DNA from: DASRDR01 sp963812945 [NCBI: uncultured Candidatus Rokubacteria bacterium]
Lineage (GTDB): Bacteria > Methylomirabilota > Methylomirabilia > Rokubacteriales
Reading direction: 5' to 3'
Length of the DNA stretch: 64,000 bases
Assembly: GCA_963812945.1 (NCBI GenBank)
Contig: CAWEXD010000008.1
Coordinates: 3,844,001-3,908,000, forward strand
The notes beneath the pieces are model-generated. The model made no database searches. It saw only the letters and a list, made by a program, of their open reading frames with translations, and was not told the DNA's origin. The translations under genes were made by a program, and so were the position numbers. The first letter of the stretch is position 1, and the number at the start of each line of letters is the position of its first letter. Positions 18,461 to 53,746 of this stretch are shown here, piece after piece.

Positions 18461-18508
18461 TGGCGGGGTCGACGGGACTTGAACCCGCGGCCTCTGGCTT
18501 GACAGGCC
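18461..18508 (-). pseudogene. tRNA-Asp 3' half (attachment-site remnant)
   Basis: 48 bases identical to the 3' part of the intact tRNA-Asp at 27271-27318, from CCA through the T arm to the anticodon stem, ending exactly at the 11-bp core CTTGACAGGCC (18498-18508) on the plus strand. Beyond it the sequence is unrelated. It is the left boundary of the accessory region. Its complementary 5' half with promoter is at 53669-53709. Confidence 0.85.
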
Positions 18509-18742
18509 TGGGCCATGCTCCGAGATGTGCGTGCCCAGCCACACTTGCCAAGGAGTTATCGCGAATCTCGTTGGATCGCGTGGGCCTGCGCGGGCTGGTT
18601 CCGACGGCTCACCGGGTACACGACCGGGTACACACAGGGCTCCGACGGCGTTCACCGAACCCGGCGTCGTATGACGGACGGTCACCTCACGAAGAAGGAG
18701 AACGAGGTCTTCTTGCGCCGTCTCCAGAAGCGCGGCGGCTGA
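18509..18742. other. Element left arm without a recognised gene
   Basis: No supported gene. A short open stretch ends in a 23-codon ATG frame (18674-18742; MTDGHLTKKENEVF...) of lysine- and arginine-rich sequence that could be the tail of a lost integrase or regulator, but it is too short to call. Confidence 0.35.
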
Positions 18743-19135
18743 TCAGGCGCAGCCGGTTCGGGGGGTGCCCCGCGCCTTCCTGGGCACCAGCGTGCAGGCG
18801 AAGGTGGCGGGCTGCTGCCGGTACTGGTCAAGGCGGGCCCGAAGCCGCGCCAGCGTCCGGTCCCGCTTGGCGAGGCCAATGCCGTAGATCGCCAAATCGT
18901 TCACCAGCCGCGTGTAGAAGAAATGCTGGTGATCACCAGTGTCCCGCATGCAGGGCGTCGGCTTCTGCGCCACGCGCAGGAGGAGCCCGAACGCGTGGAC
19001 GTACTCGCCGAGCACCGGTTCGTCACGGAGGTCCGGGGGAACCTCGGGGAAGCGCGCCAGGAACTCATCCACCGTCATCGGGGTGCGAACGGCCCGGGCG
19101 CATTCCTCCAGGTCCGGTGACAGGCGGATCTGCAT
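18743..19135 (-). CDS. Hypothetical protein, 130 aa
   Basis: Unrecognised soluble protein. The ATG at 19135 is chosen because GGAGGGG lies about six bases upstream. Visible features: MTVDEFLARFPEVPPDL, a central HQHFFYTRLVNDLAIYGIGLAKRD and a basic C-terminus with regularly spaced arginines (LARLRARLDQYR) that could be a helix or short coiled coil. It sits at the left end of the nested element, minus strand. No membrane segment or signal peptide. Confidence 0.5.
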   Translation of the reverse strand: MQIRLSPDLEECARAVRTPMTVDEFLARFPEVPPDLRDEPVLGEYVHAFGLLLRVAQKPTPCMRDTGDHQHFFYTRLVNDLAIYGIGLAKRDRTLARLRARLDQYRQQPATFACTLVPRKARGTPRTGCA

Positions 19136-19315
19136 GACAGCCCCTCCAGGGTTCAGTATAGCCTGGGGGCGCCCGGCCGGTCTTCTCGTACCCACACACC
19201 CATCCGTCATCCTCCGACTTGACGGTCATGCTCACCCGATCAACCGCCAATGCCTCCACCACGTCGCGGGATCGCACCCAGGAATCCCCCTCTCATCGCC
19301 GGCGCGTACCTCGGA

Positions 19316-19987
19316 TCACGAGCCGGGCGCGACCGGAGCGCCCTTCCAAGGCCGGTGCCCATAGCGGTCGAGCGAGACCACCTCGCCCACCGGCCGGCGC
19401 GTCGTCGGTCCGTAGCGGCCGCGCGGCCAGCCAAGCGGGATCACCGCGCAGGGCTGCACGCTCCAGGGGCAGCCGAGGATGCGTCGCGCCGACCAGGTGC
19501 TCCACAGCGGGAGCGTGATCAGCGCCGCGCCGAGGTTCACGGCGCGCGCGGCGAGCAGCAGGTTCTGCACGGCGGGGAAGACCGACCCGTAGTACGAGGC
19601 CGTCGCGACCGGCGGAAACCAGAGCCGGGACCCGCGCAGGCAGGCCACGACGATCACCGGGATCTCCTCGAAGTGGTCGGCCTGCCACTGCACCGCGTCG
19701 AGCACCCGTGACATCTTCGGGTCCTTGCGCATGAGCCAGCGCCCGAGTCCGCCGTACAGATGCCAGGCCTGGCGATTGCGGCGCGCGAGCTTGGCCTTCA
19801 CGTCGGGATCGCGCACGACGATGAACTCCCAGTTCTGGGCGTTCGACCCGCTCGGCGCCTTCACCGCGAGCTCGATGAGCCGCAGCACAAGGGCGTCGTC
19901 CACCGGATCAGGCTTGAGGCGTCTCACCGCGCGCTGCGTCGTCATGGCGTCCTCGAGCGGCATGGAGAAGTCCCGCGTCTCTCTCAT
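19316..19987 (-). CDS. Nitroreductase-family FMN protein
   Basis: 223-aa nitroreductase-fold protein that should bind FMN and reduce nitro, quinone or related substrates with NAD(P)H. Signatures: TTQRAVRRLKPDPVDD at the start of the domain, APSGSNAQNWEFIVV (FMN phosphate contacts), and the later GSVFPAVQNLLLAARAVNLGAAL segment with IPLGWPRG near the C-terminus. ATG at 19987 follows GGGAGGA by seven bases. It lies between the tRNA remnant and the IS remnant and has the composition of the host rather than of the neighbouring sugar operon. Confidence 0.82.
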   Translation of the reverse strand: MRETRDFSMPLEDAMTTQRAVRRLKPDPVDDALVLRLIELAVKAPSGSNAQNWEFIVVRDPDVKAKLARRNRQAWHLYGGLGRWLMRKDPKMSRVLDAVQWQADHFEEIPVIVVACLRGSRLWFPPVATASYYGSVFPAVQNLLLAARAVNLGAALITLPLWSTWSARRILGCPWSVQPCAVIPLGWPRGRYGPTTRRPVGEVVSLDRYGHRPWKGAPVAPGS

Positions 19988-20137
19988 CGAGACATCCTCC
20001 CTCAGGTGCGAAAAGGCCGAGAGCCATGTCTGGGCGACCTGTCCGCGGACGATCAGGGTTCTTACGGCAATCTAGAGCTGAGCGTCGCCTCAACAACCCA
20101 ACGGGCTACGGTGATTGCCGTAACCTCTTGTTTCCCT

Positions 20138-20281
20138 TGTCCTTCGCCAAAACTCCGTCCGTCGGCCAAGCGGTTGATATGTCGGCTCTGATCCGGAGAG
20201 AATCCCAGCTCGATGATCACACTCCTGCTCCACCTGTTTCGACTCCTCCCGTTCGTCTGCGGCGGCCACCGCCAGCTCGCC
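20138..20281 (+). mobile_element. 5' remnant of the rve-type IS found complete at 58786-60068
   Basis: About 144 bp closely matching the left end of the complete IS: the terminal repeat (TGTCCTTCGCCAAAACT), the leader with AATCCCAGCTCGATGATCAC, and the first codons of the transposase up to CGCCAGCTCGCC. The match stops abruptly at 20281/20282, where the foreign sugar operon begins. The copy is a deletion remnant and marks the junction. Confidence 0.85.
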
Positions 20282-20292
20282 TTGAATGCCTT

Positions 20293-21216
20293 CTATCCTT
20301 TGAGTCCCGTGTGCGCGAGCCCTTCGACGAACTGTTTTTGCGCCACCACAAAGACGATGAGCACCGGCAGCGCGGTCAGAGTGGCGGCGGCCAGCTGCAC
20401 GTTCCACAGCGGCCCGCCATACGCGTCCGTGAAATGGGTTAGCGCCTGCGGCAGCGTGAACATGTTCGCGCTGGAAATAAACACGATGGGCTCCAAGTAG
20501 AGGTTCCAGCTGTGCAGAAAGGTGAAGATCGCCACCGAGGCCAGGGCAGGGCGCGCCAGCGGCAGCGCGATCTTGCGGAAGATCGTAAAGCGCCCCAGGC
20601 CGTCTACGCGCGCCGCTTCCTCCAGCTCCACCGGCAGCGCGATGAAAAACTGGCGCATCACGAAGGTGGTGAACACGCTGGGCGCGCCGAATATCGGCAC
20701 CAGGATCAGCGGCCAGTGCGTGTTGACCAGGCCCAGCCGGCGGAAGACCTGGAACAGCGGCACGATGGTCACCTCGGCCGGTATCAACAGGCCCAGCAGC
20801 ACCACCATGAACAAGGCGTCCGCGCCCGGGAACCGCACTCGGGCGAAGGCATAACCGGCCATGGACGACACCGCCATGGTGCCGATCGTCACGATGGCCG
20901 CGATGTAGGCCGAGTTCCAGTATTGCTGCCCGAACGGCTGCAGCTTGAACACTTGCGCATAGGTGGTCCAGTCGTAGTGGGCCGGCAGCAGCTGCGGCGG
21001 AAAGGCAAAGATGTCGCTGGCGGGCTTGATCGACGAGGTCACCATCCACCAGGTCGGGAACACGAAGGGGATCAGCAGCACACACATGCCGCCGTAGATC
21101 AGCAGCCGGGCGCTGCGCGACGAATGTGCCCCCAGCCCAGCCGCTTTGCGTCTGGCCCCCCGAGGGGGTGCAAGAACACTTGGGGCGGCCCGGCGTCTTT
21201 TCTCAGCGTTCCTCAT
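20293..21216 (-). CDS. Sugar ABC transporter permease, MalG/CUT1 type
   Basis: Inner-membrane permease, 307 aa from the ATG at 21216, which overlaps the upstream permease stop by 14 nt. About six helices, starting LIYGGMCVLLIPFVFPTWWMVTSSI, and the cytoplasmic EAA loop ELEEAARVDGLGRFTIFRKIALPLARP that docks the ATPase. Last intact gene of the operon; the IS remnant starts 11 bp beyond its stop. Codon use and base composition (many CAG, GCC, AAG; lower GC) differ from flanking genes and recall Betaproteobacteria. Confidence 0.9.
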   Translation of the reverse strand: MRNAEKRRRAAPSVLAPPRGARRKAAGLGAHSSRSARLLIYGGMCVLLIPFVFPTWWMVTSSIKPASDIFAFPPQLLPAHYDWTTYAQVFKLQPFGQQYWNSAYIAAIVTIGTMAVSSMAGYAFARVRFPGADALFMVVLLGLLIPAEVTIVPLFQVFRRLGLVNTHWPLILVPIFGAPSVFTTFVMRQFFIALPVELEEAARVDGLGRFTIFRKIALPLARPALASVAIFTFLHSWNLYLEPIVFISSANMFTLPQALTHFTDAYGGPLWNVQLAAATLTALPVLIVFVVAQKQFVEGLAHTGLKG

Positions 21217-22168
21217 GGAACACCACTTTGCGGCGCAGGGACCACTGGGCAAAGGTCAACACCACGACGATGGCGAACAACACGACGGCCAGCGTGGAGC
21301 CGTAGCCGAACCTGTTGAACTGGAAGGTCTGCTGGTACAGGTAATACACCAGCACGGTGGTCGACACACTTGGGCCGCCTTGCGTCAACACAGCAATCTG
21401 CGCAAACACCTGCAGTGAACCCACCACGGTGATGATCGAGGTCAGCATGATGGTGGGGCTGATCAGCGGCAGAGTGATGCGGCGGAACTGCTTGAAGCGC
21501 GCCGCGCCGTCGATGCGTGCGGCTTCGTACAGCTCGCCCGGCACGCCCTGCAGCGCGGCCAGGAACAGCACCATGTTGAGCCCCACGTTCTTGAACACCT
21601 GCACCACGATGACCGACGCCATCGCAGTGCCCGGCGTGCGCAGCCAGTTGGGCCCCTCGATACCTAACGCGAGCAGCGCGCCATTGACGCCGCCGTTTTT
21701 CTGTAGCAAAAAACCCCAGACGATGGTCCAGGCCACCAGCGACACCACCACGGGCGAAAAGAACAGGGTGCGAAACACCGTGATGCCGGCCAGTTTCTGG
21801 TTCAGCAGCACCGCCAGCAGCAGCGCCAGGCTCAGGTTGAACACCACCAGCCCGGCCGAGAACAAGGCTGAGGCCCCCAGCACGCCCGGAAGGTTGGGGT
21901 CTTGCAGCAGCTGCTGGTAGTTGTGCGTGCCGACAAAGTTGAAGGTGTTGGCCAGCACGTTCCACTGGTGCAGCGAGAACCAGGCCACCAGCACCAGCGG
22001 CAGCAACACGAAGGTGGCGATGCCGGCCAACTGCGGTGCGACGAACAGCCAGCCCGCCAGCGCATCGCGGCGCGCGATGGTCCAGTACGGCCGCTGCCGT
22101 GGCGCTGGCGATGGACCGGGCGGCAGCATCGTGGCGGTGGGGGCTGGGGGATCAGCGATGCTCTGCAT
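21203..22168 (-). CDS. Sugar ABC transporter permease, MalF/UgpA type
   Basis: 321-aa inner-membrane permease of the carbohydrate-uptake (CUT1) class. Helix 1 is DALAGWLFVAPQLAGIATFVLL preceded by a cytosolic proline-rich tail, and the EAA loop reads LYEAARIDGAARFKQFRRITLPLISP. It pairs with the following MalG-type permease to form the channel. Operon order is regulator, oxidoreductase, binding protein, this permease, second permease; the gap from the binding protein is 54 bp. No ATP-binding subunit follows. Confidence 0.9.
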   Translation of the reverse strand: MQSIADPPAPTATMLPPGPSPAPRQRPYWTIARRDALAGWLFVAPQLAGIATFVLLPLVLVAWFSLHQWNVLANTFNFVGTHNYQQLLQDPNLPGVLGASALFSAGLVVFNLSLALLLAVLLNQKLAGITVFRTLFFSPVVVSLVAWTIVWGFLLQKNGGVNGALLALGIEGPNWLRTPGTAMASVIVVQVFKNVGLNMVLFLAALQGVPGELYEAARIDGAARFKQFRRITLPLISPTIMLTSIITVVGSLQVFAQIAVLTQGGPSVSTTVLVYYLYQQTFQFNRFGYGSTLAVVLFAIVVVLTFAQWSLRRKVVFHEER

Positions 22169-22222
22169 GACCCGCGTTTCGTGCGATGAGGTCGGTGCAG
22201 AGCATGCTGTCTGGTTGCTCGG

Positions 22223-23494
22223 TCAGTTCTGCAGCAGCGGCGTGATCTGCGCGCAGATGGACTGCAGCGCGGCCGGTATGTTGGCCTGTGGCGTCCAGAC
22301 AGTGTCCAGACCCGCACGCACGGTTTGCTGGATGCGCGCGAACCCGCTGTGGCCGGGCATGACCTTGCCGGTTGCGATGCCCGAGACCACCACCTTGTCG
22401 AGCTGGGCAGCGCTCAGCAACGCGTTGGTTTTCTTCAACACGTCGGCATTGAGCAGCGACTTGCGTGCCGAGGGGAAGAACTGCGCGAGCTTGGCCGAGT
22501 TCTCCGGGTTGGTCATGAAGGCCACGAAGGACGCGGCCTCGGCGGCGTTCTTGCCGGCGCTGAACACGCCTATGCCGGCCTGCCCGATCAGGGCGTAGTC
22601 ACCAGCCGGGCCTTTGGGCAGCGGCACTAGGTCCCACGCAAAGGGCTTGTCCTTGGGCAGCAGTGACGCGCGGCTGATCTGCGTGATGGTCATGGCGGCA
22701 TCACCGGCAAAGAAGTCCAGGTTCTGGCCCGGACCGGGCATGGCCTTTTTGGCGAAGATCGCGTCATGGAGGAAGGACATGGCATCGACCATCGGCCTGT
22801 CCGCCAGCGTGCAACGCTTGCCGTCGGCGCTCCAGGGCGAGGCACCCCAGCCGTTCCATACCGAGGCCAGGTATTGCCAGTCCTGGTAGTTGAAGTCGCG
22901 CACGATCAGGCCCGCCTTGCCGGACTTCGCCACCGCCTCGGCGCTCGTGATGGCGTTGGCCCAGGTCCATTCGCCGGCGGCGATCAGTTCCTCGGGTGTC
23001 TTTGCGCCGGCCTTCTTGATCAGGTCGTTGTTGACGAACACGGCGAAGGGCGAGGTCGAGAACGGGTAGGCGTACAGCGTGCCGTCCTTCATCCAACGCT
23101 CGGTCGCGCCTATGCTCACCTCGCCCAGGTTGTAGCCGGGTGTGGCGGCCAGCGTCCTGGTCAGCGGGAACAAGGCGCCGGAGTTGACAAAGTCCTGCGC
23201 GGTGGTCTCGAAAATCCAGGCCATGTCGGGCGCGTTGCCGCCCGCGATCTGGGTCGTCAACGCCGTGGTGTAGGTCGAGAAGGGCAGCGAATCGAAGCTG
23301 ACGGTGACATTGGGCTTGACGCGCTTGTAGTCGTCGGCGATGCCGTTGAACAGCTTCAGGTGCGCCTCGTTGGCGCTCCAGATGGTCATGCGCAGCTTGA
23401 CGGGCTGCTGCGCGGGGGCGTTCGCCACCAGCCCCAGCACGAGCGTGAGGCCGCCGAGAAGGGTGCGGATGCGGGGGATTGCGGGTCGGTTCAT
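22223..23494 (-). CDS. Sugar ABC transporter substrate-binding protein (CUT1 family)
   Basis: Periplasmic solute-binding protein, 423 aa. Signal peptide RTLLGGLTLVLGLVANAPAQ, then LRMTIWSANEAHLKLFNGIADDYKRVKPNVTV, the type-1 extracellular sugar-binding opening. GGNAPDMAWIFE and SAGKNAAEAASFVAFMTNPENSAKLAQFFPSARKS are the usual ligand-domain and C-terminal features. Being next to an FAD-dependent oxidoreductase suggests the imported sugar or polyol derivative is oxidised, but the ligand is not evident. ATG at 23494 with a purine-rich AGAAGGAGA upstream. Confidence 0.9.
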   Translation of the reverse strand: MNRPAIPRIRTLLGGLTLVLGLVANAPAQQPVKLRMTIWSANEAHLKLFNGIADDYKRVKPNVTVSFDSLPFSTYTTALTTQIAGGNAPDMAWIFETTAQDFVNSGALFPLTRTLAATPGYNLGEVSIGATERWMKDGTLYAYPFSTSPFAVFVNNDLIKKAGAKTPEELIAAGEWTWANAITSAEAVAKSGKAGLIVRDFNYQDWQYLASVWNGWGASPWSADGKRCTLADRPMVDAMSFLHDAIFAKKAMPGPGQNLDFFAGDAAMTITQISRASLLPKDKPFAWDLVPLPKGPAGDYALIGQAGIGVFSAGKNAAEAASFVAFMTNPENSAKLAQFFPSARKSLLNADVLKKTNALLSAAQLDKVVVSGIATGKVMPGHSGFARIQQTVRAGLDTVWTPQANIPAALQSICAQITPLLQN

Positions 23495-23530
23495 GTCGGT
23501 CTCCTTCTCTGTTTACTGGGGGTCGGTGAA

Positions 23531-25142
23531 TCAGTAAGCGCGTACGTCCGGCCAGCGGATTTCCACGCCTGCACGCGTCAGCAGGGCCTGAAATGTTGCC
23601 AGTTGCGTGTCGTCTTCTTGCACCCGGTGCGGTGTGGCGCCGCTGTTCAAGCAATGCGCCGCCAGCATGCCGGCGGCCTCGCCCGCGTTCCACTCCACCG
23701 GGTGCAGCCGGTAGCAACCGTTGGTGATGTGGGTGGTGCCCATGTTCTTGCCGCCGGCAAGCAGGTTGCGCATGCGCCGGGGCAGCAGCGCGCCGAGCGG
23801 GATCTCGAACGGGCACGATGGCGACGTCGATGTAGTTGTCGCCGCCGGTCGAGGGGTGCAGGTCGATGCGGTACATGCCCACGCCTACGCTGTCGCGGTA
23901 GTGCAGCGCGCCGCGTTCGCCGCGCACCGCGTGCGACAGATCCTGCTCCACCACGCGCGTGACCGGCAGGATGCGCCGGCCCTCGCGGATGTAGGGCGCC
24001 ATCGCCAGGCCGTGTGTGGTGCCGGTCACGTCGCCACGCAGGCGCAGGCCACGAAAGCCCTGTCCGCCGTCTTCGCGTGGCGCCTCGGCCTGCAGCCAGT
24101 AGAAGACGGCATGGGACAGTTCGGCGGCCGCTTTCAAGTGGCGTGCGCGCTCGGCCTCGGACACATCGAGGATGGAGCCCTCGAGGTAGTCGATCATGGG
24201 CCAGTTGACGAGGCAGATGTCGGAGCGGTAGGCGCCCGGCCTGAAGTTGCGCCGCGCGGCGATACGCCGGAAGGTCCACAGATTCATGTCGCCGCCGCCC
24301 TTGCGCTGGTCGGCATCCACCAGCAGCGGGTCGTCGTCCGGGTTGGGCGTGAAGGAGCGCTCGACGATCTCCAGCGTGCGCGGGTGCGGTGCCTTGAAGC
24401 CGAGCAGGGGCCCGCCCCAGAAATGCGGCTGGTAAGCGCGCCAGAAGTCGTAGTTGTGCGGCTTGCTGATGGTCTGGTCGCCATCGACATGGTCCATGGC
24501 GAAGCAGATCGACAGGGCCTGTACGTTGCCGGGCTGCGCTTGGGCTGGCGCGCTGGGCTCGCCGGTGTCGGCGCGGCTTTCGAAGCCGATGGTGTACTCG
24601 GTGTCAGTGAGCGGCAGCAGGTCGCCGAGCTCAGTGGCGTCAATCACATAAGCGGCGGACACCGTCACGTCCGTCGCGCTGTCGCGATGCCGCAGCGTAA
24701 CGGCGCGCACGTGGTCTCCATCCGTGTCAGCTGCCACTGGGCGGTAGGGCTGCAAAACGGTCAGCTGCCCGCCGGCGCGCCACGGCAGCAGCATGGCTTC
24801 GAGCACCGCCAGCCCGACGCGAGGCTCGGCGCACATGCGGCTGACCCAGCCGCCGCCCGGATTCAGGTCGCCCCAGGCGCGGGCGCCTTCCGTCAGCGGA
24901 TAGTGGTCTCTGTAGAACTGGCGGATGCCGGCGCGCAACGCGCGGTAGGAGCGCGTAATACCGAACTGCTCCACCCAGCTGTGTTCGTCCGGAGGCACGG
25001 CCTGGCTGGTGAGCTGGCCCCCGATCCAGTCGAACTCCTCGCTCATCACCACGCTGCGCCCGCCGCGCAGGGCACCCAGCGCCGCCGCGATACCGCCCAG
25101 GCCGCCACCGACCACCAATACATCCGTCTTCAACTCTTTCAT
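23531..25142 (-). pseudogene. FAD-dependent oxidoreductase (FAD_oxidored family), frameshifted
   Basis: About 537 codons. The N-terminal part has LVVGGGLGGIAAALGALRGG (FAD-binding GxGxxG) and FDWIGGQLTSQAVPPDEHSW; the middle has DATELGDLLPLTDTEY. At ~23812-23822 the frame shifts: YIDVA should continue as CPFEIPLGALLPRRMRNLL, which lies in another frame and carries on through GGKNMGTTHITNGCYRLHP to the stop at 23531. One base gained or lost explains it. The ATG at 25142 overlaps the LacI stop by four bases (ATGA). Family members oxidise or process carbohydrate-like compounds. It is either a real pseudogene or a base-calling error. Confidence 0.8.
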
Positions 25143-26200
25143 GGCTTCTTCCGCAGTTTCCGTTTGGATGCCACACTGCCCTTGGCCAGTCCCAGGGTTT
25201 CGCCCTGAATGGGTTCGCAAGCCAGCAGGACCTGCTGCACGTCTTTAGCCCCTTCCACGCGGCGCACCAGCATCGCGGTGGCCTGGCGGCCCATCTCGGC
25301 ACGCGGGATGTCATAGGAAGCGAACCGTGTGCGAGTGTGCCCTGCAGCCAGGTGGGACCCCATGACAATCGCCGAGATGTCATCCGGGAAATGGATTCCC
25401 CGTTCGTGCGCCTGGCTTTCGAACTCCACGGCGTCGGCGAGCTCGATGAAAAACACCGCGGTGGCGGCGTGCTTCAGCACGGCGTCCAGCACCGCAGCGG
25501 GCGAACCCCGCGAGACCGGTACGTGCAGGGCCAATTCCAGATCCTTGCCCAGCGCGCCGGTGAAGCCTTTCCAGCGATCGGCAATGGATTCCGCCGGCCC
25601 AGAGGGCCCGACATAGGCCAGGCGCCGGTGGCCCAGCACGCGCGCCTGCTCCACCATCCGCGCCGTGGCGCTGACATAGTCACCACCGACATAAGGCACC
25701 GGGCCGCCCGCGTCGTCGCGCCGCCCGATCGCGACAAAGGGGAAGTCGCCCGAAACCAGCCGCTCCAGCTCGGCACGGTCGAACGCCTTGCCCAGCACGA
25801 TGCACCCGTCCGCGATGCGCAGCCGATTCCCGTCCGCGAACAGCTTGCGCTGCCCCTCGACACCACCATTGCCCGTCAGCAGCAGCAGGTCGTAGTTGCG
25901 CGCCTGCGCCTCTTCTTCGATGCCAAACAGAAAAGGGGTGAAGAAATCGGCATGCGCGATGGGGAACGCCGGCTCATACGTGAAGACGCCCAGGATGCGA
26001 TTGAAGCCCTTGGCCATGCGGCGCGCAATCGGGTCGGCCACATAACCGGTTTCGCGGATCACCTGCTGTACCCGCATGCGCGTCTCCTGCGGAATACGCG
26101 CACCCGTCTCTGAGCCGTTCAACACCAGCGACACTGTGGCCTGGCTCACGCCGGCCAGCTTGGCGATGTCGTGCTGCGTCAGGCGCTTGGTTCCCAGCAA
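25139..26200 (-). CDS. LacI-family transcriptional regulator
   Basis: 353-aa repressor. N-terminal helix-turn-helix RLTQHDIAKLAGVSQATVSLVLNG with hinge helix ADPIARRMAKG, then a periplasmic-binding-protein-like effector domain (NRILGVFTYEPAF...). Start is TTG at 26200, eight bases after GGAG; no ATG or GTG is available in frame. It is the first gene of the sugar operon, so it should repress its own operon until the sugar is bound. A matching promoter and palindrome lie immediately upstream. Confidence 0.9.
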   Translation of the reverse strand: MLGTKRLTQHDIAKLAGVSQATVSLVLNGSETGARIPQETRMRVQQVIRETGYVADPIARRMAKGFNRILGVFTYEPAFPIAHADFFTPFLFGIEEEAQARNYDLLLLTGNGGVEGQRKLFADGNRLRIADGCIVLGKAFDRAELERLVSGDFPFVAIGRRDDAGGPVPYVGGDYVSATARMVEQARVLGHRRLAYVGPSGPAESIADRWKGFTGALGKDLELALHVPVSRGSPAAVLDAVLKHAATAVFFIELADAVEFESQAHERGIHFPDDISAIVMGSHLAAGHTRTRFASYDIPRAEMGRQATAMLVRRVEGAKDVQQVLLACEPIQGETLGLAKGSVASKRKLRKKP

Positions 26201-26215
26201 GCTGGTGTCTCCGGG

Positions 26216-26247
26216 TGATAATACGTATCAGCAATGCCTATTGTCAA
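26216..26247 (-). promoter_or_regulatory. Promoter and putative operator of the LacI-headed operon
   Basis: Reading the minus strand: -35 TTGACA (26247-26242), 18-bp spacer, -10 TATTAT (26223-26218), then GGAG and the TTG start of lacI. The palindrome TGATA-N5-TATCA (26230-26216) covers the -10 box, a natural place for autorepression by the LacI protein. The promoter is intact although the integrase on its other side is truncated. Confidence 0.65.
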
Positions 26248-26256
26248 CTTCAGAGA

Positions 26257-27197
26257 GTACTTGTCAAGCGGCGGAAGTTGAAGCAACGCTGGAAGGACAT
26301 CGGCCGGGGCCGATTCGTGTTTGGCCTCAAGTGGCGGCGCGCCCCGCTCCGCGCCGCCTTCGGCGACGATCGCGCGGTGGACGTGACCGAGGCGCGCATC
26401 GAGCGGTACAAGGCGGACCGACGGGGCAGCCTGACGCGTACACGGTGTGGCGTGGGGAAGCGGCGGGTCGCCCCCGCGACGGTCAACCGTGAGTTGAACG
26501 TGCTCGAGCGCACGTTCCGGTTGGCAGTACGCCAGAAGCTCCTGAGCGTGGCGCCGACCATCGAGCTCCTGGTTGAGGGGATGCCGCGGCAGGGCTTCCT
26601 CGAGCCGGCGGACTTCGAACGGGTCGCCTACTTGTTGCCAGCGGATCTTGAGGACTTCGCTCGGTTCGGCTATCTCTCCGGCTGGCGGAAGGGTGAGGTA
26701 GCCCGGCTGACCTGGCCCGACGTCGATCGGACCAACGGCCGGATCGTTCTCCGCCGGGAACTCTCGAAGAATGCAGAACCTCGCGTGCTGCCGCTAGTCG
26801 GCGAGCTCGCCACCCTGATCGAGCGACGCTGGATCGCGCGCGAGTACGAAGCCCTGGGCGGGACGGCGCTGGCGCCTTTCGTCTTCCACCGGGACGGCCT
26901 GCCGGTCGGGGACTTTCGGAAGGCGTGGGCGCCGCGTGCGCCAAGGCCGGCGTGGCAGGCACCCTCTTCCACGACCTCCGACGCTCCGCCGTGCGCGACA
27001 TGGGCCGCGCGGGCGTGAGCCAAGCGGTCGCCATGCGGGTCAGCGGCCACAAGACGGCGAGCGTCTCCCGACGCTATCGGATCGTGGCTGAGGACGACCT
27101 CGGTGAGGCGCTCGCCCGGACCCAGGCCAGCCTGGCGGCACGGCCGGCCGGCACAGTGACGCCCCTTCGGGAGGCCGTCGAGAGCAAAGGCCGATAA
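26257..27197 (+). pseudogene. Tyrosine-type site-specific integrase, N-terminally truncated and frameshifted
   Basis: Core-binding and catalytic domains are visible: [16 protein letters not shown] (first Arg), [13 protein letters not shown] (Lys), then, after a one-base loss near 26930 (TGGGCGCC where TGGGGCGCC is needed), [17 protein letters not shown] (His-x-x-Arg), [13 protein letters not shown] (His and the nucleophilic Tyr). The first ~100 residues of a normal integrase are missing; coding similarity begins right beside the sugar operon promoter. It converges on tRNA-Asp, its presumed target. Confidence 0.85.
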
Positions 27198-27225
27198 GGG
27201 CAACCCGCACAAAACCCGCACAGTG

Positions 27226-27254
27226 AGAGGGGACGGCTCATCACCGCCCCCTCT
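27226..27254 (-). terminator. Hairpin between integrase and tRNA-Asp
   Basis: AGAGGGGACGG / CACCGCCCCCTCT stem, third copy of the hairpin family also found at 8697 and 18418. It lies 17 bp beyond the tRNA CCA end on the tRNA strand, and just past the integrase stop on the other strand, so it may serve both. Confidence 0.55.
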
Positions 27255-27270
27255 AACTGCGCGTCAGATA

Positions 27271-27348
27271 TGGCGGGGTCGACGGGACTTGAACCCGCGG
27301 CCTCTGGCTTGACAGGCCAGTGTGCTAACCAGGCTGCACCACGACCCC
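27271..27348 (-). tRNA. tRNA-Asp (GTC)
   Basis: Complete cloverleaf on the minus strand: acceptor GGGGTCG pairs with CGACCCC, D arm GCAGCCTGGTTAGC, anticodon arm CTGGCCTGTCAAGCCAG with anticodon GTC, T arm with GGTTCAAGTCC, discriminator G and encoded CCA. It is the only intact tRNA in the window. Partial copies lie at 18461-18508 and 53669-53709. Confidence 0.95.
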
Positions 27349-27354
27349 CAATGC

Positions 27355-27383
27355 AGATTAGCTACTTAGCGCGCATGGGTCAA
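27355..27383 (-). promoter_or_regulatory. tRNA-Asp promoter
   Basis: Minus strand: -35 TTGACC (27383-27378), 17-bp spacer, -10 TAATCT (27360-27355), six bases before the tRNA 5' end. The same two boxes with the same spacing stand before the split tRNA half at 53.7 kb, which supports the assignment. Confidence 0.6.
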
Positions 27384-27479: not shown

Positions 27480-28046
27480 ATGTCACGGAAGGAAGTCGAC
27501 CGGCCCGGGGCTCCTCAAGGCCCTGGTCGCGAGGCAACTCACGAATCGCCAAGTGGCCGATGCGCTCCGGCTCAGCGTCCGGCAGGTGCAACGTCTGGCG
27601 CGCCGGTGGAAGGCCGCCGGCGCGGCCGGGCTGGTCCATCGCGCCCGTGCTCGGCCATCGCGGCGACGGCTCGCGCCGGACCTGCGGCACCGGGTGGGTG
27701 ACTTGATGCAGACGGTCTACCGGGGCCTCAACGACAGCCATCTCACTGAGAAGCTCCGCGAGGTCGAGGGGCTGACGCTCTGCCGCGAGTCCGTCCGGCG
27801 GATCCGCCGGGCGCTCCGCGTGCCCGCGAAACAGCCGCGGCGCCCGCCTCGCCACCGTCGTCGGCGCCAGCCCGAAGCCCGAATCGGCAGTCTGATGCTC
27901 TTGGACGGCAGCCCGGCCGACTGGCTCGAGGGCCGGGGTGCGCGCCTGACCCTCCACGGGGCGTTGGACGATGCCAGTGGGGCGGTGCTGGCGTTGACGT
28001 TCCGCCCCACCGAGGATCTGCACGGCTACGCAGTGGTCTTCGATCA
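27480..28046 (+). pseudogene. ISNCY-type transposase fragment
   Basis: N-terminal ~190 residues of an ISNCY-family transposase: helix-turn-helix LTNRQVADALRLSVRQVQRLARRWKAAG, then the start of the DDE core at MLLDGSPADWLEGRGARLTLHGALDDASGAVLALTF. The initial MSRKEVDRPG is in another frame owing to an extra C near 27506. Similarity stops at FDQ (~28046), where an alpha/beta-hydrolase fragment on the opposite strand begins. No terminal repeats found. Confidence 0.8.
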
Positions 28047-28223
28047 GCCGCGGAGATACGGAACGAGGACGCGGCAGCCCGCTCCCATCAGGAGCGGCAC
28101 CACCTCGTCGTAGACCCGGACGTCGTAGGGGAAGCCGTGCAGGAGGACGACAGGAGTCCCGTCCTGCGGCCCGTGCTCCTCATGGGCGACGCGGAGCACT
28201 CCAGCCTCGACGTGCTTCAGCAT
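28047..28223 (-). pseudogene. Alpha/beta hydrolase, N-terminal fragment
   Basis: Starts with its own ATG at 28223 and reads MLKHVEAGVLRVAHEEHG then VVLLHGFPYDVRVYDEVVPLL, the oxyanion-hole HGFP segment of an alpha/beta hydrolase, and stops being alignable after VLVPYLRG, where the ISNCY fragment abuts. About 60 of an expected ~290 residues remain. Its ATG overlaps the stop of the small gene upstream, so the two were once an operon. Confidence 0.8.
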
Positions 28224-47352: not shown

Positions 47353-47374
47353 GGGTAAAACAAAGGGGGCACCG

Positions 47375-48436: not shown

Positions 48437-49947
48437 CCCTGATCCGAAAATAACTCACGCGACGAGAGCATGGGCCACCCGATCGTAGAGCGCTTCGGTT
48501 GCGGGATTCTGGGTGAGGCGCAGAACCTGGCGCCCGTCGATGCGCGCCAGGCGGCCAGCGCGAGCGATCAGCAGGAAGCGCAGGGTGCGCATGCTCCGGA
48601 AGGCGAAGGCGTAGGTCCGCTTCCGCGAGCGGGACTTGGCCGTGGCGGTCGTCTGGAGCTGGAAGCTGCGCAGCAAGTTATGGGCGAGGACGCTCAGGTG
48701 TTGCCACGCGCTGTTCGCCCCGTAGTGGTGCGTGGGCACGACGTCGAAGGCGAACTCGCCCTTGAGTTCCCCGTACGTCTTCTCCTGGGCGCCGCGCCCC
48801 GCGATGAACGCCCAGAGCGCGGCCGGGGCGAGGGCCTTGTTCGTCGTCACCGCCGAGTACTCGAAATGCCCGTCGTCGGGGGAGAAGAGATCGAGCTGGA
48901 AGTTCTTGCGCGTCGGGTGGCCGACCTGCTTCCGGTAGACAACCACCCGGAGGGTCAGGTCCCAGGGTTCCAGTCGCAGCTGGGTCTCGAAGGCGCTGAC
49001 CTGGGCGGTGATCCGGATCCAGTGGCGTTGGGCCGCGACCAGGGCCTTGAGCCCGACCCACTTCCAGAACCCGACCTTGATCGCGTACTCGCAGCCTTCG
49101 CGAGCCAGGAGGGTGAGGATCTTCTCCTGGAAAAAGGCCGCGTCCATGCGGAATTCCAGCGGGAGGCTCCGGCCGAAGCGCTCGCGGAGCTCGTGGATCA
49201 GCTCGCGAAGGAACCGGGCGGCCCCGCGGCTGTCGTGCACGTTTCCCGGCCGGTTCTTCAGCCGCAGGATGTGCCCGGTCTGGGCGAGATGGGCCAGCAG
49301 AGGATAGTAGCTGGGGTCCTTCTTGAAATGGGGATTATAGCCGCGGAAGGCCCAGGCCACCGTGTTCCCCGTGCGGACCACGGTGCCGTCGACATCGATC
49401 GTCAGCCGCGGCAGATCGAGCCGCTCGAGCTGCTCATACAGGAGCTCGCTGTTCAGGGTGATGAGCGCCTGCAGGGCTTCCTGGGTGAACTGCCTGAGCC
49501 AGTTGGCCACGGTGCGGTCGGTCGGGATGCGCGCCAGCCCGCAGAGCCGAGCCACCAGCGGGTCGTGGGCCAGATACCGCAGGTGTTCGAGACGCCGAGC
49601 GCCGACCACGATCAGCGCGATGACCAGGCACACCAGCCGGCCCGCGCCGTAGTCGCCCCCGAGCCCGTACCCGCTGAATGCCTGACGAATCCGGCGGTGC
49701 AACCCGAGCAGGCCGAAGTACCGGCGCAGCAGCTCCAGACCCCCGTACGAGGTCAGCTGCTGGGGGACGAACTCGATGGGCAGATCGGCCTTGACGACGC
49801 GGCGCAAGCTCGCTACCGTCAACCTCATCAGAAGGGCCTCCCGTGCGCGAGGGTGAACGTGGGTGCGTTCTCCCTTATGAGCGCATCGGAGGCCCTTTTG
49901 ATTCATCCCGATCGCACTTTCACGTCCTGGCTATTTTCGGATCAGGG
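48437..49947. mobile_element. Complete IS1380-family insertion sequence
   Basis: 1511 bp bounded by perfect terminal repeats CCCTGATCCGAAAATA / TATTTTCGGATCAGGG, with a 4-bp target duplication TTAG on both sides (48433-48436 and 49948-49951). One full-length transposase gene. Perfect ends, target duplication and an intact gene indicate recent insertion. Confidence 0.92.
48455..49828 (-). CDS. IS1380-family transposase
   Basis: 457 aa from the ATG at 49828 (GGGAGG eight bases upstream). DDE transposase: LPRLTIDVDGTVVRTG (first Asp), LEFRMDAAFFQEKILTLLAREGCEYAIKVGFWKW (second Asp), and GAQEKTYGELKGEFAFDVVP then YGANSAWQHLSVLAHNLLRSFQL around the Glu, all typical of IS1380. Full length and uninterrupted. 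Confidence 0.92.
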   Translation of the reverse strand: MRLTVASLRRVVKADLPIEFVPQQLTSYGGLELLRRYFGLLGLHRRIRQAFSGYGLGGDYGAGRLVCLVIALIVVGARRLEHLRYLAHDPLVARLCGLARIPTDRTVANWLRQFTQEALQALITLNSELLYEQLERLDLPRLTIDVDGTVVRTGNTVAWAFRGYNPHFKKDPSYYPLLAHLAQTGHILRLKNRPGNVHDSRGAARFLRELIHELRERFGRSLPLEFRMDAAFFQEKILTLLAREGCEYAIKVGFWKWVGLKALVAAQRHWIRITAQVSAFETQLRLEPWDLTLRVVVYRKQVGHPTRKNFQLDLFSPDDGHFEYSAVTTNKALAPAALWAFIAGRGAQEKTYGELKGEFAFDVVPTHHYGANSAWQHLSVLAHNLLRSFQLQTTATAKSRSRKRTYAFAFRSMRTLRFLLIARAGRLARIDGRQVLRLTQNPATEALYDRVAHALVA

Positions 49948-49960
49948 TTAGGGCAACCCC

Positions 49961-50311
49961 TCAGGCATGTTGGAGAATGTTAATCAGTTTTCCGAACGGA
50001 TCTCGGACATAGAATCTGCGCACACCCCACGGCTCACTCTTCGGGCCGTACTCGATTGGGACCTTCGCCCTCTTCACTCTCGCTAGAGCCGCGTCAATGT
50101 CGTCAACTTCAATCGACATGTCCGGGACAGGTGTGCCAGACCCTCCCTCTGAGGCGATGCTGACCTGAATCGTCATCTTTGAGTCGGAGCCGTACGTGCG
50201 TATCCACCCGAGGTCCATGAGCAGTTCGAGACCGAGGAGGTCGTGGTAGAAAGCACGGGCCTTCTCTACATCGGACGCGGCAACATTTGAGACGATGCGC
50301 TTGACCTTCAC
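49961..50311 (-). CDS. VOC/glyoxalase-family protein, probable integron cassette gene
   Basis: 116 aa: KRIVSNVAASDVEKARAFYHDLLGLELLMDLGWIRTYGSDSK, then PDMSIEVDDIDAALARVKRAKVPIEYGPKSEPWGVRRFYVRDPFGKLINIL, a compact two-module VOC protein as in fosfomycin/bleomycin-type proteins and many cassette-borne genes. GTG at 50311 with GAGGAGC upstream. It is flanked on both sides by attC-like hairpins, and the downstream one carries the IS1380 insertion. Ligand unknown. Confidence 0.85.
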   Translation of the reverse strand: MKVKRIVSNVAASDVEKARAFYHDLLGLELLMDLGWIRTYGSDSKMTIQVSIASEGGSGTPVPDMSIEVDDIDAALARVKRAKVPIEYGPKSEPWGVRRFYVRDPFGKLINILQHA

Positions 50312-50338
50312 CTAGTGCTCCTCGCGTAGTGCTCCTCG

Positions 50339-50439
50339 CGCCTAAAGGCCTCGAGATGAGCCGCCGGCCCGCCCAAGGCGAGTATCGCGCCAACCTCAAC
50401 GCCTGGCTGGCCGGGTCGGCTCCATTAGTTGTAAGGCGG
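50339..50439 (-). repeat. attC-like hairpin after the methyltransferase remnant
   Basis: Minus strand: CCGCCTTACAACTAATGG, GAGCCGACCCGGCC, a ~40-bp loop, GGGCCGGCGGCTCAT, then GGCCTTTAGGCG. The inner arms pair well and the outer boxes resemble RYYYAAC and GTTRRRY, each with one mismatch, so it may be decayed. It begins seven bases after the stop of the preceding ORF, the usual cassette layout. Confidence 0.4.
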
Positions 50440-50441
50440 GT

Positions 50442-50806
50442 TCATTCGTCGCTGATGCCGCCTATTTGCGTCTGTGACGTTCGGGCGATCGCCAGCGCCG
50501 TCTCAGCCACGTCAACGCCCAGAAACGACAATCCAGCGAGGTGACGTGAAGAGCGTTCTCGCCGGTCCCGCAGCCCGCATCGAGCACCGCTCCGGCGAAT
50601 CCGCCTTCGGATCCAAAGCGCACTACTGCGGGCTGCGGCCGGCCAATATCCCAAGGTGCGGGGCCGTCGTGGTACGACGCATCCCAGGGCAGTCCCGTCA
50701 GCCGTTCGTGACTGGTTGGGTTCCGACCACTGAACGGATCGTCAGCGAGGGTCCTGATCGCTCCGACAACTTCGTCCCCTTCCTGCAACTGCCCTTGCCA
50801 CGTCAT
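50442..50806 (-). pseudogene. SAM-dependent methyltransferase, frameshifted and C-terminally truncated
   Basis: MTWQGQLQEGDEVVGAIRTLADDPFSG..., SYHDGPAPWDIGRPQPAVVRF and AVLDAGCGTGENALHVTSL (SAM motif I) in one frame, then GLSFLGVDVAETALAIAR in another after a one-base loss near 50527. The rest of the ~200-residue fold is missing; the frame ends SQTQIGGISDE just before an attC-like hairpin. Confidence 0.78.
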
Positions 50807-50940
50807 CGTGCACGCTCCCACTTGCAGCCGAGATCGCCCCTGCCGGCGCGGCTCACCGCCGGAGGAGCCCGGCGATGTGCGTGAGCTCGGGCAGGGTCAG
50901 GCGCTCTTGAGGCGTCAAGGTCGATTCACACGGCGCGGGG

Positions 50941-51963
50941 TCAGGCCTTCGCCCCTTCAATAACGCACCATGCGGCCTGTGTCGGGATGATGCGCGTCAG
51001 ACGGAATCCGGCGGCGGCGTACAGCTCGCGAAATTCCGCCTCGCATCGCTGGCGGCCCCCCGTGCACACGAGCATGTTGACGTCGTTCGCGGCCGCCCCG
51101 CGGCTCGCCGGTGAGCCGTCGATGTGCGGCGGGTACACCCCCTCGACGATGAGCAGCTTCGCCTGCGGTCTCATCGCGCGCCGGCAGTTCTCAAGGATGC
51201 GGACCGCGCGCGCATCGTCCCAGTCGTGGATGACGTGCTTCAGCAGATACGCATCGAAGCCCTCGGGGACCGCCTCGAAGAAGTCGCCGGCGACGAATCG
51301 ATAGCGATCGGCGAGACCGGCGCCGGCGATCTGCCGTCTGGCGCTCTCGGCCAGCCGTGGTAAGTCGAACACCGTTCCCTGCAAGCTCGAATACGCCCGG
51401 AGGATGCCCGTCAGCAGCCGGCCATCCCCACCGCCGACGTCGATCACCTCGTGCATGCCGGAGAAGTCGTAGGCGGCAGCGACCATGCCGGAGATCACGG
51501 CGGTGAACGAGCCCATTGCCTCGTCGAACACGGCGGCTTCCTCGTGATGGTCGGCGAAGTACTCGAATGAGCCGGTCTTGAAGATCCGCGGGAACGCCGG
51601 CTCCCCGGTGCGGACCGTGGTTCGCAGATCGCCCCAGCATTGCCACACCATGGGACCGGCGACAAGTCGCGCCACGGCGCGAGACGAGCCTGGCCCGCTG
51701 CGAAGCGCCGAGCCGACTGGCGTCAGTTCGAAACGTCCGTCAGCATCCTCGGCGAAGACACCGGCGCTCGCGAGCAACCGCAGCACGCGGCGCAGGGACC
51801 CCGCGTGGGTTCCCGTCTTGGCGGCAAGCGCCTCGGGCGTTTGCGGGCCCTCGGCGAGGAGATCGGCGATACCGAGGTGTGCAGCCACGTGGAGCGCCTG
51901 GGAGATGTAGTGTGCGCTCGCGAGCTGGTAGATCACCATGGGCGGCGGAAGTTCTGTGTCCAT
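50941..51963 (-). CDS. O-methyltransferase (Methyltransf_2, acetylserotonin/caffeate type)
   Basis: 340 aa. N-terminal dimerisation winged helix (ISQALHVAAHLGIADLLAEGPQTPEALAAKTGTHAGSLRRVLRLLASAGVF), SAM motif VIDVGGGDGRLLTGIL, FVAGDFFEAVPEGFDAYLLKHVIHDWDDARAVRIL with the catalytic His, and LIVEGVYPP. It methylates a hydroxyl on a small molecule, often a polyketide or aromatic. Divergent from no gene; the AraC gene upstream is on the same strand and 45 bp away, so they may be cotranscribed. Confidence 0.87.
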   Translation of the reverse strand: MDTELPPPMVIYQLASAHYISQALHVAAHLGIADLLAEGPQTPEALAAKTGTHAGSLRRVLRLLASAGVFAEDADGRFELTPVGSALRSGPGSSRAVARLVAGPMVWQCWGDLRTTVRTGEPAFPRIFKTGSFEYFADHHEEAAVFDEAMGSFTAVISGMVAAAYDFSGMHEVIDVGGGDGRLLTGILRAYSSLQGTVFDLPRLAESARRQIAGAGLADRYRFVAGDFFEAVPEGFDAYLLKHVIHDWDDARAVRILENCRRAMRPQAKLLIVEGVYPPHIDGSPASRGAAANDVNMLVCTGGRQRCEAEFRELYAAAGFRLTRIIPTQAAWCVIEGAKA

Positions 51964-52008
51964 GCAGACCTTCTATATCGCCGCGGCTACCGGCGTCTTG
52001 GAGAAAAG

Positions 52009-52896
52009 TCAGGAGGCCGGGGGCCCCTCGGTCACCGTGGATCCGTCGCCGACCGGATGTCGCGCGGCCAGGAACGCCCGGGGGGTGACGCCGCCGAGAG
52101 CGCGGAATTCCGCATTCATGTGCGCCTGGTCGCAGTACTGCACGTCGAGCGCCACGTCCGTCAGCCGCACCGGTCCCGCGGACTGCAGCTGACCGAGCGC
52201 TCGACGGAAGCGCAGGATGCGGCCGTACCGCTTCGGCGCGAGACCAACCTGGTCGCGGAACGCCTCCACCAACCCCGTCTTCGAGAGCCCCGTGCGCTCG
52301 CGCAGCGCTGCGATCGGGGTGGTGCCACCGCTGGCGTCGAGCTGCGCGACCGTCCAGGCGACGACCCTGTCCATCGCGCGCGTCCGGGCGGAGCGTCGGA
52401 CAATCCATTGTGCGAGGACGCGGAAGCGACTTTCAATCGAGGTTGCTGTCTCGCAGTGCTCCAGAAGCTCGCTGGCTTCCGAGCCGATCAGGTCGGCGAG
52501 GTCCAGCGAGAGGCCGGTCGTCTCACGCATTGGCCGCGCGACGACGGCGTAGGCGCCCGCCGGCCGCAGCCGAACGCCGATGACGTGCTGGTGAGCGGGC
52601 TGCTCGAGCACAATGGGCCCGACCTGGGGACCGCCGAGCCAGGCGCTCCGGCACACGTCCGCTCCGGCGCCCTCGACGAGTCGGTAGGGTTCACCGAAGT
52701 TGAGGAGGAGCTCGACACGGCCGTTCGGGAAGACGCGCTTGAGGCGATGCGAGCTGGGGCCGTCGTATGCCCAGAGATGGTCGACCAGCCCGTGCAGCTC
52801 CGGCGGCCGGCACACGCTGTAGCTCCAGCCCCCGAGCGGCGAGACGCCGCGTACCGTCTCGAGCCCGAGTAATTCGGCGCGACTCCCCGAATCCAT
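52009..52896 (-). CDS. AraC-family transcriptional regulator (DUF6597 N-terminal domain)
   Basis: 295 aa from the ATG at 52896; the frame stays open to 53016, so the start is not certain. N-terminal domain: LHGLVDHLWAYDGPSSHRLKRVFPNGRVELLLNFGEPYRL, typical of the DUF6597 type; C-terminal HTH_18: PIAALRERTGLSKTGLVEAFRDQVGLAPKRYGRILRFRRALGQLQ, VRLTDVALDVQYCDQAHMNAEFRALGGVTPRAFL. Probable regulator of the O-methyltransferase gene that follows it. Confidence 0.85.
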   Translation of the reverse strand: MDSGSRAELLGLETVRGVSPLGGWSYSVCRPPELHGLVDHLWAYDGPSSHRLKRVFPNGRVELLLNFGEPYRLVEGAGADVCRSAWLGGPQVGPIVLEQPAHQHVIGVRLRPAGAYAVVARPMRETTGLSLDLADLIGSEASELLEHCETATSIESRFRVLAQWIVRRSARTRAMDRVVAWTVAQLDASGGTTPIAALRERTGLSKTGLVEAFRDQVGLAPKRYGRILRFRRALGQLQSAGPVRLTDVALDVQYCDQAHMNAEFRALGGVTPRAFLAARHPVGDGSTVTEGPPAS

Positions 52897-53016
52897 GCGC
52901 GACCGTGGTGAGGACGTGGCGTCAACCAGGATGCCGGCGACATCGACATTTGACACGCCCGGACGCCCAGAATCAGGGCGCTCTTGTCGGGATGTGTTTG
53001 GGAACTGACAGGACAT

Positions 53017-53617
53017 ACGGCAACCTTCCAGCGGTTCGGCCGCGACTCACGATGACCTGTGCTCAGGACACGGCTTGGGTCCGTTCCGGGACGGAATCGG
53101 CATGTCAGCCTCTCCCGCTAGATAGTCGAACGAGCCGGCCCGCAATCGACATTCCGGAAGTGATCGCCGACCCCAGGGGCGGGCCCAAAGCTGGCGAGCG
53201 ATTGAGTGCCGCCCGGCGGACTAGCCGCGGCATCCGGCACGGCGTTCCGGAGGCGTGAACGCTTCGTCCCCCTTTCCCCTTGGGCGTTGTCAGCGGCTCC
53301 CGTCTACCGCCCACCGCGGCCAGACCGGTACCTCGAGGGCCAGGTCTCCATGCTGATGGTGTCCGTGCGCCCCACCATCCCGTCGTTCCGCTTGGAGCTT
53401 CGCCGCGATGCCCAGAGGCCGACCCGTCTGGTGAGAGCGCGACACCTGATGCGAGACGCGCAAGTGAACCCGAGGAGTTCCGGCGGCTGCTGAACGCGTA
53501 GCACGAACGTGTCGCGAACGAGTCTGGACCGCCCGATCCCGCTATGCCCGAAACTATGCCCGCGACCGCCCCTCAAAGGCCCCAAACCACCCCCCGCCAG
53601 CCAACCACCCAAAGAAA
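53017..53617. other. 600-bp intergenic region
   Basis: No gene supported. Contains copy C of the 32-bp sequence and G/C-rich tracts. It ends at the terminator that precedes the split tRNA half. Confidence 0.45.
53121..53152 (+). repeat. 32-bp dispersed sequence, copy C
   Basis: Starts GATAGTCGAACGAG and ends ATCGACAT, 32 bp, with GGCCCG in the middle; it lies about 225 bp upstream of the AraC start. See copies at 32243 and 41023. Confidence 0.65.
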
Positions 53618-53652
53618 AACCCCTCGGCAAGTCCGCGACTTACCGAGGGGTT
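53618..53652 (-). terminator. Rho-independent terminator after the tRNA-Asp 5' half
   Basis: AACCCCTCGG / CCGAGGGGTT stem followed, on the minus strand, by TTTTTCTTT. A strong intrinsic terminator that would end transcripts from the split tRNA promoter. Confidence 0.8.
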
Positions 53653-53668
53653 CTATTTCGCCCGCCTG

Positions 53669-53709
53669 CTTGACAGGCCAGTGTGGTAACCAGGCTCCAC
53701 CACGACCCC
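53669..53709 (-). pseudogene. tRNA-Asp 5' half (attachment-site remnant)
   Basis: 41 bases matching the 5' part of tRNA-Asp with two substitutions, from the acceptor stem through the D arm to the anticodon loop, ending at the same 11-bp core CTTGACAGGCC (53669-53679) as the 3' half at 18.5 kb. Beyond it the tRNA is replaced by CAGGCGGGCGAAATAG. The acceptor stem has no partner, so no functional tRNA is made here. Confidence 0.85.
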
Positions 53710-53717
53710 GTGCTTGT

Positions 53718-53746
53718 AGATTAGCTACTTAGCGAATACCGGTCAA
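53718..53746 (-). promoter_or_regulatory. Promoter before the split tRNA-Asp half
   Basis: -35 TTGACC (53746-53741), 17-bp spacer, -10 TAATCT (53723-53718), the same boxes and spacing as at the intact tRNA-Asp. Only the segment CGCTAAGTAGC of the spacer is also conserved. It may still fire and give a short RNA ending at the 53618-53652 terminator. Confidence 0.6.

Follow-up and report, generated by a model that had tools for sequence, protein, structure and literature searches.

Genomic islands that enter transfer RNA (tRNA) genes at the anticodon loop are well known, and those that restore the gene from its 5' half are known but rare. In the part of the Islander survey that we draw on (PMC4383910), 3760 of 3919 islands carry a displaced 3' fragment and 159 a 5' fragment, and tandem arrays are known, 125 of them with two or more islands. 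A review, in the portion available to us (PMC8371274), gives the anticodon loop as a usual overlap place for tyrosine integrases and describes pTN3-like archaeal integrases, which restore the tRNA from its 5' half and replace its promoter, the restored tRNA then being read from the integrase promoter. Here we analysed a 64-kb stretch of a Rokubacteria contig (CAWEXD010000008.1, positions 3,844,001 to 3,908,000; hereafter the window), in which three pieces of tRNA-Asp with a common anticodon-loop core stand in line, all on the minus strand. Our reading, to which we give a probability of about 0.82, is that two tandem islands of opposite polarity occupy the same tRNA-Asp site, and that the gene between them is a hybrid. 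The principal features are as follows.

18461-18508, minus strand: displaced tRNA-Asp 3' half, ending at the core (18498-18508)
18509-27270: left interval of about 8.8 kb, putative 3'-restoring island by Pfam and layout
26215-27197, plus strand: frameshifted tyrosine integrase, now in two frames (26215-27018 and 26925-27197) and directed towards the 3' end of the tRNA
27271-27348, minus strand: intact tRNA-Asp(GTC), the sole intact tRNA-Asp by ARAGORN and Rfam
27349-53668: right interval of about 26.3 kb, putative 5'-restoring island, with metabolic and regulatory genes and rve and DDE transposases by Pfam
53611-53653, minus strand: terminator-like hairpin with a T run (the "cap"), directly after the displaced 5' half, by folding and a 26-sequence alignment
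53669-53709, minus strand: displaced tRNA-Asp 5' half, with the core at 53670-53680

The locus is like the Islander tRNA islands, as far as they are described in the part consulted (PMC4383910), in its tyrosine integrase, anticodon-loop core, restored gene with displaced fragment and tandem arrangement; in the window a single gene carries one 3' and one 5' displaced fragment. Restoration from the 5' half is shared with the pTN3-type, which is archaeal and for which the available portion of the review mentions no terminator end (PMC8371274). Phages with tRNA-dependent lysogeny, in the excerpt that we draw on (PMC10865867), likewise have a short core, displaced tRNA pieces and an intact copy within the inserted DNA. 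However, such a phage carries a separate whole tRNA, whereas in the window the junctions would restore the gene. ICEKp1 and similar integrative and conjugative elements, as partly described in PMC13023037, offer a parallel in the tRNA promoter, the displaced terminator and the state-dependent reading at the tRNA junction, but there integration is at the 3' end and the integrase is read from the tRNA promoter, while in the window a terminator follows the displaced 5' half. A literature search by title and abstract opening found no terminator at a displaced 5' tRNA half and no tRNA restored from both sides, and the parts of PMC9897764 and PMC2647930 available to us hold nothing on terminator ends or two-sided restoration. 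What looks new here is the conserved terminator end, together with a tRNA gene occupied from both sides.

An earlier, sequence-only reading of the window had described a tRNA-Asp gene split into two halves with an intact copy in between, and its coordinates, the shared core and the intact copy were borne out: the left 3' half and the intact gene agree at 47 of 47 positions, and the right 5' half has 95% identity over 42 nt. The tRNA-Asp gene was not lost: by our reading, each island would have restored it, and it now lies between the two. In archaeal split (trans-spliced) tRNA genes both halves are needed and there is no intact gene; the window has an intact gene at 27271-27348. The 11-bp common core is present, but the sharing is longer, the longest exact runs being 56 bp between the left and intact copies and 18 bp between the right and intact copies. 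On the left, a 127-bp repeat (18382-18508 and 27192-27318, 87% identity), the inner copy of which begins at the integrase stop codon, means that the likeness extends beyond the tRNA gene. On the right, the likeness to the intact locus includes a 38-bp stretch upstream of the tRNA (79% identity), where the following two regions lie.

27355-27383, minus strand: upstream region of the intact tRNA-Asp (TTGACC, 17 nt, TAATCT), resembling 53718-53746 and promoter-like by eye
53718-53746, minus strand: sequence upstream of the displaced 5' half, with TTGACC, 17 nt, TAATCT, by sequence similarity

The same earlier reading had each half keeping its own flank, with a terminator hairpin on the left and promoter boxes on the right. 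The promoter boxes are only suggestive; a hairpin just right of 53.6 kb was found by folding and by a custom scan. The displaced 5' half also carries a paired change in the D stem, from C13-G22 to G13-C22, and all 34 intact relatives examined have C13-G22. Because two random changes would give such a paired swap with a chance of 0.0016 (a simple estimate), the displaced 5' half is probably derived from a functional tRNA, or was itself part of one, and it might conceivably still give a useful RNA. The intact tRNA-Asp would be the hybrid, with a 3' half of left-island origin and a 5' half of right-island origin.

In the mechanism that we propose, each interval would correspond to one island and both islands, recombined by integrases of this kind, would have the 7-nt anticodon loop (CTGTCAA) of the tRNA-Asp gene as their target. 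The left island would bring a 3' half beside its integrase gene, moving the older 3' half far to the left and leaving the gene whole. The right island would bring a 5' half together with its own upstream region, moving the older 5' half far to the right and again leaving the gene whole; with a 5'-restoring island of this sort, either the island flank or the integrase gene would have to drive the restored gene. The hairpin lies right after the core in the end of the right island and, if the upstream regions are active promoters, could stop transcription from the orphaned 5' half in the integrated state, and in the circular form transcription starting upstream of the island's own 5' half. For 3'-restoring islands no such promoter would be present there, and the strong terminator is missing from their ends.

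The comparison with relatives was based on the LL-diaminopimelate aminotransferase of the window, which has 78% identity to a Candidatus Rokubacteria protein, making the host Rokubacteria-like; the NCBI phylum of this match is Candidatus Rokuibacteriota, which GTDB places in Methylomirabilota. The comparison set consisted of 60 genomes of the order holding the match (genomes and loci are given below by G and L numbers where they have to be told apart), and the window tRNA-Asp was matched at 78 of 78 positions in G058. A pattern scan of the set gave 45 matches to the 5' half (43 intact genes and 2 displaced) and 59 to the 3' half, 16 of which were displaced, in 11 genomes; intact and displaced 3' halves were separated by comparing the two match lists. 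One further, degenerate displaced 5' half, in G046, was detected by BLAST only. The displaced halves examined terminate at the anticodon loop. Exactly one intact tRNA-Asp was present in 39 of the 41 genomes with a match, the others (G027 and G055) having two, and the tRNA-Asp gene of the host is probably single-copy. The exact tRNA pattern had no match in viral_contigs and genome_contigs, and a strict repeat-plus-TTGAC pattern had no match. An ancestral tRNA-Val/tRNA-Asp operon was also considered and rejected: the two genes lie 21 nt apart in only one genome (L181), and ten tRNA-Val downstream regions inspected by eye contained no tRNA-Asp remnant, save the intact gene of L181.

The right end of the right interval has the more distinctive structure. 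Reading inwards from the displaced 5' half, the hairpin with its T run starts after about 15 nt (-34 kcal/mol, z -4.7; detected by folding and a custom scan) and is followed by a GGGCATA repeat pair. This order recurs after the displaced tRNA-Asp 5' halves of G059 (with a degenerate pair), G040 and G046 (loci L147, L166 and L167), as well as after displaced 5' halves of tRNA-Met (L236, L239) and tRNA-Val (L146). The repeat pairs are placed alike in L166, L167, L236, L239 and L146. In L236, L239 and L146 the displaced 5' half matches, at 100% identity, an intact tRNA 9-11 kb off on the same contig, and this intact tRNA has a co-oriented integrase just upstream (a fragment in L146, and with one internal TAG in L239); the 5' half was thus replaced in these three loci. 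In L147, L236, L239 and L146, the distance from such an end to an intact tRNA of the same kind is 4-11 kb. The right interval itself has a displaced 5' fragment in the same orientation at its far end and a terminator end like that of the relatives, and it was classed as the remnant of a 5'-restoring island, not an active one, because no integrase gene was found. Two further features were placed in it.

27553-28113, plus strand: open reading frame (ORF) with a transposase-type helix-turn-helix, the Pfam matches all being below curated cut-offs
53541-53564, minus strand: two direct repeats, GGGCATAGTTTC / GGGCATAGCGGG on the reverse strand, lying within the right end as putative arm-type sites

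The ORF lies near the place where the integrase of the right island would be expected from L151, L152, L158 and L179, and its sequence suggests that it is probably an insertion-sequence remnant.

Whether the terminator belongs to this type of end was assessed across genomes, taking a folding energy of at most -15 kcal/mol within the next 90 nt as the criterion. A strong terminator (-20 to -30 kcal/mol) followed 7 of 7 displaced 5' halves that had been found independently of the hairpin, against 82 of 3000 random 90-nt windows (Fisher p 1.6e-11) and none of 17 displaced 3' halves of tRNA-Asp when scanned outwards from the core (Fisher p 2.9e-6), these 17 being the 16 in relatives and the one in the window. 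Two of the 17 have weaker hairpins in that direction (-8.8 and -14.6), and one displaced 3' half has a weak hairpin (-10.7) when read towards the core. A hairpin pattern, built after viewing the window, L147, L236, L146 and L166, so that the sites in G033, G040 and G054 are not independent, had 26 sites in 17 of the 60 genomes, and the reversed pattern had none. It gave no sites in 32 genomes titled as other groups (one titled only 'bacterium') and no match in viral_contigs; with at most two mismatches, two further sites were found elsewhere in the phylum, one with a tRNA-like 5' half by eye (L282) and one with none (L283). Within the order, 25 distinct sites were examined (two of 26 rows showed the same site), and 21 of them sit within about 30 nt after a 5' half 35 nt or longer, from tRNA-Lys, Val-tac, Val-cac, Arg-tct, Asp or Met, the match in one of them (L280) being only 84% with an E value of 0.006. 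The hairpin was aligned in 26 sequences including that of the window (27 were extracted and L262 was dropped for a shifted stem). In this alignment 95.3% of stem cells are paired and both-sided changes occur in 5 of 13 stem pairs, as many as were reached by 29 of 500 shuffles, and the covariation score was reached by none of 500. A separate observation was made in G046, contig C72, where L276 (1491-1813) holds two terminator-ended tRNA remnants 271 bp apart, a tRNA-Val(CAC) 5' half and a tRNA-Asp core.

The left interval is supported as the layout of an ordinary 3'-restoring tRNA island. The integrase, although frameshifted, adjoins the restored tRNA, a 3' fragment in the same orientation lies at the far end, and the convergent layout recurs in L156, L174, L190 and L198, the integrases of the last two having open frames. 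Three further features lie at its ends.

18382-18460, minus strand: flank downstream of the left 3' half, with a GTGCGGG repeat pair and hairpin, resembling the spacer that separates the integrase stop from the intact tRNA
18611-18634, plus strand: two direct repeats, ACCGGGTACACG/ACCGGGTACACA, some 100 nt in from the left end of the left island, putatively arm-type sites for the integrase
27198-27270: spacer between the integrase stop and the tRNA, with a CCCGCAC repeat pair and hairpin, read from the sequence

The flank at 18382-18460 is probably the end of an older 3'-restoring island, and a similar GTGCGGG pair lies downstream of tRNA-Asp in L169. The interval contains a nitroreductase, a sugar ABC transporter, a LacI regulator and the integrase, all by Pfam, and an oxidoreductase-like stretch which was named solely through plasmid matches (about 77% DNA identity) and in which no gene was called. 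The sugar ABC transporter genes and the oxidoreductase-like stretch (21242-25140) have, in their best parts, about 77% nucleotide identity to rhizobial megaplasmids. A stretch at 20138-20284 is shared, at 92-95% identity, with a transposase-like gene in the right flank (58787-58932).

Another explanation would be a single 35-kb element that split the tRNA and carried a complete tRNA-Asp, as in tRNA-dependent lysogeny. The sequence-only reading had offered such an island with a whole replacement gene, and we consider it unlikely. In its favour, the exact match between the right junction and the intact gene is just 18 bp long, and the excerpt of PMC10865867 used here describes phages that bring an entire cognate tRNA and have cores of some 10 bp. 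Against this, the integrase adjoins the intact gene in an ordinary 3'-restoring layout with repeated flanks, and the right end matches those of L147, L236, L239 and L146, where the displaced piece is a 5' half. In addition, Pfam (26 of the 28 genes called in the interval) and phrogs (six of its ORFs) named no phage or transfer gene other than the integrase and transposases, and on this count the interval does not match a phage genome with a separate whole tRNA.

Two native tRNA-Asp genes, one with an 8.8-kb insertion and the other broken by a rearrangement, would be a still poorer explanation, to which we give very little weight. The paired D-stem change in the displaced 5' half is what a paralogue might show, and two full-length copies do occur in 2 of the 60 genomes (G027 and G055); however, a single copy is the rule in the genomes with an intact match (39 of 41), and the break at the anticodon loop followed by a terminator end recurs at displaced 5' halves of the order. 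The 8.8-kb element that had been proposed earlier is upheld by the decayed, converging integrase and the far 3' half, but a second island of opposite polarity is preferred over a rearranged second copy because the right end is built like the ends that follow displaced 5' halves in relatives. Misassembly between the tRNA copies, joining unrelated pieces, is the least credible explanation, since the repeats present at all three places share exact runs of just 56 and 18 bp and the same junction types are found in other assemblies.

Several observations weigh against two islands of opposite polarity, or against the terminator as the mark of one of them. The six-frame search of the right interval with integrase hidden Markov models found no integrase, and integrases were likewise not found in L147 and L155. 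A synteny search found no relative sharing the genes that flank the tRNA region of the window, and no empty site with one contiguous tRNA-Asp joining 18461 to 53709, so that the polarity was deduced from the junctions alone. A consensus scan called no promoter upstream of either the intact tRNA or the displaced 5' half and, at its own thresholds, no terminator on either side; the terminator was perhaps missed because A-T pairs lengthen the stem into the T run. The repeat pair expected by the upstream region of the intact gene was not found in the window; such a pair is present in 6 of 34 intact relatives, most being without one. Because the repeat pairs at the two ends of the left island differ (GGGTACA and CCGCACA, by eye), two islands may have fused to form the left interval; the pairs at the two presumed ends of the island in G040 match, and matching pairs, as seen in some relatives, are no fixed requirement for 3'-restoring islands. 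As for the terminator, 5 of the 26 pattern sites are without a clear long 5' half: one has only a 13-nt core, three are without any tRNA half, and the 26th has a tRNA-Asp core by eye. The displaced 3' half of L175 has a strong hairpin (-19.0) when read towards the core. Among the integrase loci described below, only 3 of 12 co-oriented ones searched had a displaced 5' half on the stretch, and in L170 (2450-2760) an integrase adjoins a truncated displaced 3' half, showing that the restoring side is not the only place for an integrase.

The arrangement of two tandem islands with opposite polarity was set beside the integrases of the relatives. Out of 83 integrase matches listed, 50 loci were taken (30 and then 20 chosen down the list, some short ones being skipped), and 40 tRNA-Asp loci were added. 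Counting integrases with an end within 500 bp of an intact tRNA, and excluding two doubtful selenocysteine calls and duplicate places, 19 were co-oriented with the tRNA (the 5'-restoring layout) and 17 convergent (the 3'-restoring layout), the others being without a nearby tRNA; for most of these loci "restoring" is what the layout suggests. The stretches searched for such halves were up to 20 kb long and often ended by contig ends, with the doubtful selenocysteine case excluded. The other 9 co-oriented loci had no displaced half on the stretch, that of G040 being on another contig, and 1 of 7 convergent loci had a displaced 3' half (tRNA-Phe, L245). In 18 of 19 cases the distance between the end of the co-oriented integrase and the tRNA is -9 to 74 nt, so that the two may share a promoter.

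The tree built from 29 integrases, with sequences shorter than 200 amino acids excluded and two selenocysteine rows included, requires 8 polarity changes, at least 7 of them forced by supported branches. The polarity labels cluster no more than in shuffles, of which 85 and 98 out of 500 were as low. Sister integrases of opposite polarity use the same tRNA in L186 and L190 (tRNA-Asp, support 99/97) and in L205 and L222 (tRNA-Ser, support 100/100), the tRNA being 257 nt away in L222. The two-sided use of tRNA genes goes beyond the window, because the tRNA-Arg(TCT) of L233 (2096-2172) is flanked by tyrosine integrases, a convergent one on one side and a co-oriented one on the other, and because repeat pairs occur on both sides in L155 and L179. 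We lean, by a narrow measure, towards a wider proposal: that one integrase family of the Rokubacteria may switch repeatedly between replacing the front and the back half of the same tRNA gene, that the front-half class may carry a terminator silencing the orphaned promoter, and that tRNAs could thus act as two-sided ports and become hybrids. The hairpin offers a sequence handle on 5'-restoring islands. By the Islander counts displaced 3' halves are the rule and 5' halves the exception; if terminator-ended 5'-restoring islands should prove as common elsewhere as in this order, that view is lopsided. The sister integrases on opposite sides of the same tRNA make the determinants of integration direction testable.

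The right flank adds some minor observations. Accessory or decayed sequence had been thought to lie only between the two halves, but the flank from 53.7 to 64 kb has a transposase-like gene and a gene fragment, and it shares the lower G+C content of the interval (61-68%, against 70-76% left of 18 kb). At 53994-54028, 285 bp right of the displaced tRNA-Asp half, there is a 35-nt tRNA-Glu(CTC) remnant from the T stem to the anticodon loop (34 of 35 positions against L284), which a further island probably left behind. The stretch at 53860-53910 (AGGTCGCTGGTTCAAATCC...) also resembles a tRNA and may be a second displaced 3' half. Finally, a 57-bp direct repeat (53790-53846 and 55951-56007, 88% identity, 2.16 kb apart) brackets most of an SNF2-like helicase gene.

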